From the NCBI RefSeq assembly GCF_021729155.1, contig NZ_JAJQYA010000005.1:62001-126000 (forward strand): DNA of 64,000 nt, read 5' to 3'. Both the position numbers and the translations under genes were made by a program. Positions 3,893-42,318 of this stretch are shown piece by piece. This DNA comes from Membranihabitans marinus. Lineage in GTDB: Bacteria; Bacteroidota; Bacteroidia; Chitinophagales; Saprospiraceae. The notes beneath the pieces are model-generated. The model made no database searches. It saw nothing but the letters and a program-made list of their open reading frames with translations, and was not told where the DNA came from. How positions within the stretch are numbered: the first letter of the stretch is position 1; the number at the start of each line of letters is the position of its first letter.

Positions 3893-3926
3893 CACTAGGT
3901 ATAGATTGGGGCATTCTATAGTGGTG
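3893..3926 (+). terminator. possible weak terminator after the susCD pair
   Basis: A short interrupted inverted repeat (TATAGA ... TCTATA, with CAC/GTG at the base) is followed by a run of T. It lies about 30 bases after the SusD stop codon. The stem is short, so this is a tentative call. Confidence 0.35.
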
Positions 3927-3939
3927 TTTTTTGTAAAAA

Positions 3940-3978
3940 TGTAAAATAAACTTTACAAAAAGTAAAACAAACTTTACA
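3940..3978 (+). promoter_or_regulatory. tandem TGTAAA-N6-TTTACA palindromes, candidate operator
   Basis: Two near-identical palindromes, TGTAAAATAAACTTTACA (3940-3957) and AGTAAAACAAACTTTACA (3961-3978), start 21 bases apart, that is two helical turns on the same face of DNA. This is the arrangement of a dimeric repressor or activator site. The regulator is unknown. A related perfect palindrome, TGTAAATTAATTTACA, occurs at 12055-12070. The sites are about 320 bases upstream of the membrane protein/XRE gene pair. Confidence 0.45.
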
Positions 3979-4008
3979 TAATGATGTTATAATATTACAT
4001 TGATAATT

Positions 4009-4283
4009 AATACCAAATGCGTTTTATGATGTCGGTTACGATTTTGAAAATATTTGAAGTTAGACGAGGCTACGACTGAACAAAATTGCTCTTTGAGCAA
4101 TCAAAGGTCGTAAATCGACCTTTGGTGAAGGAACCGAGGCCTGACAGCCGAGGGTGGGTAAGCCGGCATAGCACCAGTGCAGCTGTCTTCATTATGTCTC
4201 TATTCAAAATAATTTAGATGCAATGCATTGCATCTCTACAATAGATCGAAATATAACCGACAATTATAACCGCAATTGGTATA
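4009..4283 (+). repeat. interspersed structured repeat, copy A (275 bp)
   Basis: This non-coding element has homologues at 15442-15605 and 41957-42318, both in the opposite orientation. Its ends are imperfect terminal inverted repeats: ATACCAAATGCG on the left, ATACCAATTGCG read inward from the right, with CGGTTA further in on both arms. Inside are the hairpins ATTGCTC-TTT-GAGCAAT (4085-4101) and CAAAGGTCG-TAAAT-CGACCTTTG, identical in copy C, and GATGCAATG/CATTGCATC near the right end. It contains no convincing reading frame. It resembles a MITE or a large REP-like element, and it ends 13 bases before the next gene. Confidence 0.8.
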
Positions 4284-4296
4284 AAATACATTCATT

Positions 4297-4764
4297 ATGA
4301 AAACTAAGTATTTGTTTCCGCATTCCTTCAAGATCATTGGTTGGATAGTATTTATACCTTCTGTCCTGATTGGATTATGGGTTTTGATAAAGGAGATTGA
4401 GCCCGATTTTCTGGATCGAAGTGTTTTTGCATTATTTATTGATGATTGGGATGAAGAGCGGTTTATGGGCGTCTTGACTAATAATATTTTGAATGAAATC
4501 ATGGCAGTTTTAGTCATTGTATCCGGTCTTCTCGTAGCCTTTTCAAAGGAGAAGTATGAAGATGAGTATATCGCTAAAATAAGATTGGAGTCATTGGTTT
4601 GGGCAACCTATGTCAATTACGGTATTTTATTACTCGCAGTAATTTTCGTTTATGATTTTTCCTTTTTCTGGGTCATGATTTTTAATATGTTTACCATATT
4701 ATTGTTTTTTATTGTGCGATTTCACTATTTGGTATGGCGCATAAATAAAAATCAAGAGTCATGA
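4297..4764 (+). CDS. small four-helix membrane protein paired with an XRE regulator
   Basis: I do not recognise a named family. The 155-residue product has about four hydrophobic segments: residues around 11-31 (IIGWIVFIPSVLIGLWVLI), 68-82, 105-120 and 125-142. There are no obvious catalytic residues. The stop codon overlaps the start of the downstream helix-turn-helix gene (ATGA), so the two are translationally coupled. Small inner-membrane proteins coupled to short Cro/C1-type regulators are common in Bacteroidota and Firmicutes, where the membrane partner is mostly of unknown role. The ATG at 4297 directly follows repeat copy A, which may therefore supply leader or promoter sequence. Confidence 0.75.
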   Translation: MKTKYLFPHSFKIIGWIVFIPSVLIGLWVLIKEIEPDFLDRSVFALFIDDWDEERFMGVLTNNILNEIMAVLVIVSGLLVAFSKEKYEDEYIAKIRLESLVWATYVNYGILLLAVIFVYDFSFFWVMIFNMFTILLFFIVRFHYLVWRINKNQES

Positions 4765-15428: not shown

Positions 15429-15441
15429 AACAATATCTATT

Positions 15442-15605
15442 TATACGAATTACATTTATAATTAACGGAAATCTTTCGATTTATTTGAAGTTTTACATCG
15501 TTTAAAATACTCGCCGTAGCTACGGCTATGTCTGTGTTTTTAGCCTCGTCTAACTCCAAATATTTTCGAAATCTTTTCCGTCATCATAAAATGTAAATCG
15601 TATTA
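15442..15605 (-). repeat. interspersed structured repeat, copy B (164 bp, short form)
   Basis: The element shares both ends with the copies at 4009-4283 and 41957-42318: TACGAATTACATTTATAATT on the left and, on the right, AGCCTCGTCTAAC followed by a terminus ending CGTATTA. The two ends are inverted repeats of each other. The interior is reduced and contains the perfect palindrome GCCGTAGCTACGGC instead of the hairpin modules seen in A and C. It lies 14 bases after the stop codon of the TonB-dependent receptor. Confidence 0.8.
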
Positions 15606-23845: not shown

Positions 23846-24254
23846 GTTGTAGTCCACTCTATCGTTCCATAGTGAGCAATCACTGTATATGGAAAGGAAA
23901 ATCCGGACAACGTAGAGCACCACACCACCTAACGGGTGGGGTTTGATTTCTTTGGAATTCAGATACAGAATAGTGCCACAGAAAATATACCGCTTCCGTC
24001 GTCTTGAGTCAAATCAGAAGACTGGAGTAAGGGTGAAAACGTGCGGTAAGAGCGCACGCAGAATATTAGTAATAATATTTTGAGGTAAACCTTGTGGGTT
24101 GAAATGCCAAATATATTGTGATTTGTTCTTTGGAACATACCTGGCTGCTCGCTGGGGCTTCGGGTCGCAAGGGGTAGGCAGCTTGATCCCATTGGTGACG
24201 ATGGGACTAGATAAATGATAGGGCACGACAGAATCCGGTTTATCGGGCTACAAC
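23846..24254 (+). ncRNA. rnpB: RNase P RNA (class A)
   Basis: This is the catalytic RNA that matures tRNA 5' ends. Conserved elements are in order: GGAAAGGAAAATCCGGACA (CR-I), AGTGCCACAGAAAATATACC (CR-II/III), GGGTGAAAACGTGCGGTAAG, and the 3' CR-V block GACAGAATCCGGTTTAT. The ends are set by helix P1: GTTGTAGTCC at 23846-23855 pairs with GGGCTACAAC at 24245-24254, and a T-run follows as terminator. Short open frames inside on the opposite strand are spurious. Confidence 0.95.
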
Positions 24255-24265
24255 TTTTTTTATCT

Positions 24266-41902: not shown

Positions 41903-41956
41903 GATATTATATCTTAATATGTGTTGTCCACAGTGAATTTTGGTAAATCTATTTTT

Positions 41957-42318
41957 TATACGAATTACATTTATAATTAACGGTAATCTTTCGATTTATT
42001 GTAGAGTCGCAATGCATTGCGGCTTAAATATTGTGGATTAAGACGTAATGCTATACCAGTAGTAGTATCTTAACAAGGAATTCCAGGGCAATCACGCCTC
42101 GGCACAGTGGCCTACCCACCCGAAACACTGAGGTTTCGGTTCCCTCACCATTGATCCATTAAGGATCAATGATGCTGCGCATTTTGTTCGGTCATCTTCG
42201 TCAAAGGTCGATTTACGACCTTTGATTGCTCAAAGAGCAATTTTGTTCAGTCGTAGCCTCGTCTAACTTCAAATATTTTCAAAATCTTACCCGTCATTAT
42301 AAAATGTATTTCGTATTA
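41957..42318 (-). repeat. interspersed structured repeat, copy C (362 bp, long form)
   Basis: The longest copy, reversed relative to copy A. The outer ends are inverted repeats (ATACGAATTACA on the left; ATACGAAATACA read inward from the right). Internal hairpins include CCGCAATG/CATTGCGG near 42010, GAAAC/GTTTC, CATTGATCC-ATTAA-GGATCAATG (42161-42183 region), CAAAGGTCG-ATTTA-CGACCTTTG and ATTGCTC/GAGCAAT. The last two match copy A exactly; the GATCC module is absent from A. No coding frame is present. It fills the gap between polA and the DUF3078 gene. Confidence 0.8.

Follow-up and report, generated by a model that had tools for sequence, protein, structure and literature searches.

The repeat studied here, copies A, B and C of which lie in the window (the whole 64,000-nucleotide stretch of Membranihabitans marinus DNA that was analyzed), is in its outer shell an ordinary MITE, gene-less and with matched ends, and is unusual in its interior. 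We consider it probable (about 0.8) that this MITE is moved by an IS5-type enzyme, that its ends are matched through this movement, and that a separately mobile, folded three-hairpin unit resides inside it. Structural constraint on the internal stems is strongly supported and is best shown by this unit, which the preliminary description did not name.

The MITE family and its copies in the window

Two kinds of end were distinguished, alpha (TACSAAWTRCRTTTATAATTRNCGG) and beta (TACSAAWTRCRTTTTATRATGNCGG). From 119 loci (109 from the own genome and 10 from other genomes), 80 candidate elements were obtained, none of them from the latter 10, and 63 were kept that had at most 4 mismatches per end, a length of at least 95 bp, and one end of each kind; this set includes two hand edits (L087 dropped, L025:1401 added), and window copies A and B are absent from it. 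Of these 63 elements, for which the ends were the selection criterion, 62 combine an alpha with a beta end, and L025:1401 scored as beta at both. The 3-bp flanks were identical in 51 of 63 elements (26 TTA and 25 TAA), and flank identity over 1, 2, and 4 bases was found in just 1, 4, and 1 of the 63; the 3-bp identity therefore represents a target-site duplication. Identical 3-bp flanks were lacking in 12 of the 63 elements and present in 4 of the 17 dropped candidates. An empty site was identified in L065, where a nearby duplicate of the flank reads GATTTAACC without an element, versus GATTTA-element-TTAACC. Element lengths ranged from 96 to 938 bp, and 20 of 63 were exactly 159 bp and formed a nearly full palindrome. 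Outer flanks and arms were common to the elements of L005, L006, and L022, which measured 329, 434, and 159 bp, respectively. An IS200-like Y1 gene adjoins L022, an apparent 3' remnant of a Y1 gene adjoins L005, and a run of GAGACGCAATGCCTTGCGTCTC-type palindromes is located outside the MITE at L006:1210-1320.

At up to one mismatch, 78 + 80 = 158 matches to the alpha end were counted in the own genome (reversed control, 0), and 8 of 149 other family genomes had one match each (control pattern, 5 matches in 4 genomes). Allowing two mismatches gave 213 + 257 end matches versus 14 + 23 for the control, and a search of the own genome with copy A, in which 40 among 295 candidate places were scored, gave at least 70 matches. 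Because 158 alpha ends are found here and matches in the other family genomes are at chance level, the MITE burst is, as judged from these searches, peculiar to the source species among the genomes searched.

Copy A (4011 to 4281, minus strand) is a type II MITE with its alpha end at 4281 and its beta end at 4011, flanked by TAA duplications at 4008 to 4010 and 4282 to 4284. Its beta end, TACCAAATGCGTTTTATGATGTCGG, occupies 4011 to 4035 (plus strand) and its alpha end, TACCAATTGCGGTTATAATTGTCGG, 4257 to 4281 (minus strand). A three-hairpin unit at 4074 to 4158 (plus strand; match to R1, the covariance model introduced below, 77.9 bits, E = 4.6e-18) consists of HP2 (4085 to 4101), HP1 (4102 to 4124), the linker, and an HP3 degraded to 3 bp, and a GTAG-tagged REP-like palindrome (AGATGCAATGCATTGCATCT plus CTAC) lies at 4216 to 4239 (minus strand). 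Copy B (15441 to 15605, plus strand) is a 159-bp base MITE of subtype III (15444 to 15602) with TTA duplications. Copy C (41956 to 42318, plus strand) is a 357-bp type I MITE (41959 to 42315), likewise with TTA duplications, containing a GTAG-tagged palindrome, AGTCGCAATGCATTGCGGCT (42001 to 42024, plus strand), a complete three-hairpin unit (42115 to 42193, minus strand; R1 match, 82.1 bits), and a second unit without full HP3 (42195 to 42252, minus strand; R1 match, 48.1 bits), which, judged by the filled/empty pair L002/L007, appears to be the insertion site of the first. The end motifs that had been listed for the three copies were all found at both ends: ATACCAA.TGCG and CGGTTA in copy A, CGGAAA in copy B, and ATACGAA.TACA and GGTAA in copy C.

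Copy A is positioned in the 5' leader of a small gene (4297 to 4764, plus strand) that is a neighbor and no part of the element; a promoter-like region precedes copy A, and the start codon of the gene (4297) follows it. The orthologous leader in L054 is without copy A and spans 52 nt from TTTACATAATG to ATG, versus 53 nt for the own leader minus the element and one TAA, and the L054 leader accordingly reads as an empty site for copy A. Repeated TTTACA-like motifs are present at 3921 to 4009 before the small gene, after which comes an HTH-like ORF, and similar motifs also precede the orthologue in L054. The sole Rfam gathering match in the window was class A RNase P RNA (23846 to 24258); none was obtained for the MITE or the unit.

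Terminal arms and the candidate transposase

Arm matching was assessed in 63 elements (62 from the loci, after two spurious ones were dropped, and window copy B), which yielded 37 distinct arm pairs. Arms matched their own partners at 0.878 of positions versus 0.806 with shuffled partners, the observed value being reached in 0 of 5000 shuffles, so that the arms of one copy are indeed more alike than arms across copies, as had been noticed from copies A to C. The elements fall into three subfamilies: type I (TACGAA..ACGGTAA), type II (TACCAA..GTCGGTTA), and type III, which is like type I and is defined by beta TACGATT. With 4 mixed rows left out, the observed match was reached in 2522 (type I), 60 (type II), and 66 (type III) of 5000 shuffles within subfamilies and in 10 of 5000 shuffles stratified by subfamily. 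For the most part, the arm match reflects subfamily structure, and it is weaker inside the subfamilies. On a FastTree/Fitch tree (62 elements, 38 distinct rows), 4 co-changes, all in the same direction, were counted over 33 partner pairs, whereas 18 slid registers gave 0 to 4 (0 to 2 of them with a shared direction). None of the partner pairs reached significance singly (lowest P = 0.178). Aligned copies, the material on which the preliminary description had suggested a covariation check, show modest co-variation in the arms and strong covariation in the interior, in the three-hairpin unit.

Fixed differences separate the two ends (alpha TTTATAATT versus beta TTTTATRATG). At position 6 of the beta end, a T stands opposite an alpha A in 8 of 37 distinct arm pairs (10 of 38 tree rows), and alpha position 17 against beta position 18 is A against G in 16 of 38 tree rows. 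Because such differences persist, whole-arm gene conversion is unlikely, as judged from the aligned ends; short-tract correction between arms may occur. The simplest reading is that of matched terminal inverted repeats, as expected for transposon ends, and arm co-variation by itself is no demonstration of selection for a cruciform or an RNA hairpin. The earlier proposal of selection for pairing or of conversion between arms thus stands in part: co-variation is present, mostly as subfamily structure and a handful of events, and the internal stems are constrained, but conversion of whole arms is unlikely.

Two other accounts of the arm match were weighed. Shared ancestry only, with two or three subfamilies each descending from one founder copy, is somewhat less likely than not: it agrees with the absence of any individually significant pair on the tree and with the lack of own-arm matching inside type I, but does not explain why such matching remains inside types II and III. 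That the arms are kept alike by template switching or short gene conversion, with no role in pairing, is unlikely. One change of this kind was seen in L036 versus L040/L044 (A to G at position 11, present on both arms), and the residual match within subfamilies would fit as well, but the alpha/beta differences, including the beta T at position 6, persist, and the tree holds just the 4 co-changes. In the reading that we prefer, a DDE transposase of the IS5 type would cut and paste the MITE in trans, and both ends would have to fit the same transposase, so that the arms of a copy would mostly belong to one subfamily and co-vary; the arms of a copy match, probably, because both ends serve one cut-and-paste step.

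Short TWA target duplications fit some IS5 groups, and the MITE has such a duplication, a feature tested for the IS5 family. The sole PF01609 match of the own genome is an IS5-like gene (L207:5376-6922), the protein of which scored 263.7 bits against NF033578 IS5 (E = 3.1e-78; curated cut-off, 275) and 51.2 bits against PF13586 (cut-off, 29.2). In this one locus, an alpha end has its tip (L207:7156) 234 bp beyond the transposase stop; the interval contains hairpin-unit sequence, and AAATATAACTGA occurs as a motif on each side of that block. The start of the gene is in another frame (frameshift judged by eye), and no beta end was recognised to the left of it; for these two reasons, the assignment of this IS5-type gene remnant as partner of the MITE is no more than suggestive. 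No intact transposase flanked by both MITE ends was found, and no relatives of the L207 protein were detected among the genome contigs searched.

Internal hairpins and the three-hairpin unit

The internal stem for which compensatory change had been reported is a GTAG-tagged REP-like hairpin. Of the 36 contexts anchored on TTGTAGAG, 15 had at least 8 of 10 positions paired, including 7 with perfect pairing, and the remaining 21 had no more than 4. Among the paired 15, double-sided change was seen at two neighboring pairs of the stem (C-G/A-T and C-G/T-A; 3 and 1 cells there, respectively, are neither Watson-Crick nor G-T), which bears out the reported compensation; of the other pairs, 5 are invariant and 3 differ in a single unpaired cell apiece. 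The whole element was also considered as a GTAG REP or REPIN and rejected as such, the tagged palindrome being just one internal module that is missing from base forms, among them copy B and the L065 copy.

The interior of longer copies consists largely of units of approximately 85 nt, one to several per copy, with the layout 5'-GACYGA-HP2-HP1 (loop TAAAT)-GARGGARCC-HP3-GGGTGGGT-3'. Stems differ wholesale between units with complementarity kept, and the linkers are conserved. When the 109 own loci, which had not been fetched with R1, were anchored on GARGGARCC without pairing as a requirement, 66 of 79 contexts had at least 8 of 9 HP1 positions paired when one fixed offset was applied, versus 0 at 12 other offsets; with more own loci added (part of them fetched with R1), this was 92 of 115. 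In 128 own contexts, HP1 was kept in 110 (31 different stems) and HP3 in 117 (18 different arms). The same linker-anchored HP1 pairing was found in 7 of 10 and 6 of 18 contexts in the sister species G001 and G002 and, in other genera, in 0 of 9 at the fixed offset and 1 at offset -2; those contexts from other genera that were read by eye differ in spacing or linker.

The covariance model R1 was built from 20 own units (alignment A1), and a pairing test on A1 is circular because these units were chosen since their hairpins pair. Outside the own genome, R1 detected 85 units, distributed over 60 loci. In the alignment of these (73 distinct rows, fitted to R1), 22 of 22 pairs changed on both sides, 95.3% of cells paired, and the covariation score was 0.796, versus 0.189 when shuffled and at most 0.122 in slid registers. 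In the own genome (120 distinct rows from the best 150 of 234 matches, likewise fitted to R1; alignments A2 and A3, the latter being these best 150), 21 of 22 pairs changed on both sides. A search of five loci (four with units) against Rfam at a relaxed threshold gave nine matches, the best with E = 0.18 and all below gathering scores.

R1 searches scored 15 to 150 candidates per genome, counts in rich genomes being lower bounds. Matches were present in 6 of 149 genomes of an order-wide sample, all of the same family, and in 45 of 298 genomes of the family (23 of 112 genera), the own genome included in both. At E = 0.01 or better, G001 had at least 55 and G002 at least 17 matches. A strict HP3 pattern had 121 occurrences in the own genome (control, 0) and 2 in G066; the other 393 genomes sampled from the phylum had none.

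Pairwise comparison of elements revealed at least about ten distinct junctions at which an 82- to 88-bp unit stands against about 5 to 11 bp, lengths that are approximate since the junctions are alignment edges. Their sites are the tip of the REP-like palindrome (GCAATGC-ATTGC-GGCTT), the tip of the MITE, and linkers or arms belonging to other units, and no target duplication was seen at the unit junctions compared. In L002/L009 and L036/L037, the host hairpin is intact in the empty version and broken in the filled one, and insertion is therefore favored over deletion. From these comparisons, MITEs, the REP-like palindrome, and other units all appear to serve as insertion sites for the unit, which takes the place of a few bases. 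The analysis turned up no enzyme that would act on the unit.

Outside the own genome, a complete tRNA gene was found within 75 bp of a unit in 6 of 35 loci from other genera (L225, L227, L230, L234, L236, and L244), and units lie by 5S rRNA ends in L226 and L237 (read by eye). By eye, the 3' end of the tRNA in L225, L227, and L234 also recurs in inverted orientation between the tRNA and the unit, and part of it recurs in direct orientation beyond the unit. Among 34 unit sites checked for genes, open frames were present on both sides in 3 (L224, L245, and L201), of which only L224 looks split, with a frame change; this gene is a serine resolvase by reading of the sequence, and two nearby units are located there (L224:1501-1579 and 1786-1871), the first being the one that appears to split it. 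Whether insertion sites outside the own genome fall within hairpins was assessed twice: a narrow test (61 of the 85 R1 matches entered, 59 usable sites) was null (4.97 versus 4.96), and a wider one (53 usable sites) was positive (P = 0.0008 for 33 sites in other genera, 0.028 for 10 in G001, and 0.030 for 10 in G002) but was helped by a few tRNA-side loci with terminators repeated on both sides. A general rule that units insert in hairpin loops was rejected on these grounds and is kept as a lead only.

We tentatively propose, with rather less than even confidence, that the unit constitutes a separate class of Saprospiraceae element of approximately 85 nt without coding capacity, which would be recognized by its linkers and fold and not by stem sequence, would replace a few bases without duplication, and would land in other repeats, within a resolvase gene, and next to tRNA and 5S rRNA genes, its stems being rewritten such that neighboring hairpins do not cross-pair. 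Apart from this bolder proposal, the reading that we prefer already takes the unit for a separate mobile structured element, which would move as folded single-stranded DNA or RNA and which some enzyme would recognize through its linkers and fold.

Two further explanations concern the element as a whole. Were it one functional RNA (a leader regulator or an sRNA) with terminal pairing selected for folding, the position of copy A in a gene's leader and its folding, far better than that of shuffled sequences (z = -7.48 as RNA and -7.92 as DNA), would be expected. Sense-strand G-U cells also outnumber A-C cells (27 to 9 and 22 to 8), but the alignments concerned were fitted to a model with a preference for G-U, and the unfitted count is 19 G-T to 14 A-C. 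Similarly, the nearest upstream ORF is in the sense of the unit at 29 of 42 scorable sites (of 51) in other genomes, but the nearest downstream ORF at just 18 of 42. With copies that carry target duplications, are scattered over unrelated places, and range from 96 to 938 bp, we regard this explanation as very improbable. At least as improbable is a REPIN/TIRYT-like nature of the elements, with movement by Y1 (HUH) transposases. The GTAG-tagged palindrome within many copies points in that direction, as does the presence of a MITE within approximately 1 kb of the Y1 ORF at all 3 PF01797 loci of the own genome (L063, L064, and L065); a fourth Y1-like ORF with a MITE is found in L025, a locus picked for its MITE. 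Against this, 51 of 63 copies have a target duplication, which Y1 transposition is not known to produce, and the MITE in L065 and L064 resembles an insertion beside the Y1 gene and not a boundary. An IS5-type MITE with a separately mobile unit inside remains the reading that we prefer.

Relation to known elements and significance

In our search of the literature, with subscription papers mostly out of reach, no description of the MITE or of the three-hairpin unit was found. BrickBuilt of Porphyromonas gingivalis, in the parts of its report available to us, is an IS5-related MITE that contains repeats of 23 nt, is flanked by 4 bp (GAAA or AAAA), and numbers 19 copies in one strain (PMC4596501). 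Like BrickBuilt as described there, the element studied here is a Bacteroidota MITE with, probably, IS5-type ends, a variable number of internal repeats, and predicted long stem-loops, and it differs in its 3-bp TWA, its about 150 alpha ends, and its covarying three-hairpin unit. For GTAG repeats, the accessible portion of the source (PMC3733652) places them in Proteobacteria, Cyanobacteria, Chloroflexi, and PVC and describes, for Anabaena variabilis, long palindromes into which GTAG-15 dimers have inserted. The GTAG-tagged palindrome inside our element resembles those GTAG/CGTC REPs, REPtrons, and TIRtrons, whereas the element itself has DDE-like ends and the unit carries no such tag. Repetitive hairpin-forming elements of sponge mitochondria are, according to the sections consulted (PMC2800124), thought to be mobile, with tandem insertion too, their stems being conserved and their loops variable. 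The modules described here are likewise probably mobile and inserted in tandem, but their stems vary yet stay complementary, and their linkers and loops are more conserved.

The arm co-variation alone is of little merit; further attention should go to the three-hairpin unit. If truly mobile by itself, the unit would add a structured noncoding mobile family without a known enzyme, seen in 23 of the 112 genera sampled from one family and not recognized by Rfam in the loci tried. A MITE that collects covarying hairpin modules is a clean case of fast sequence change with the fold kept, and what recognizes such hairpins therefore becomes testable.
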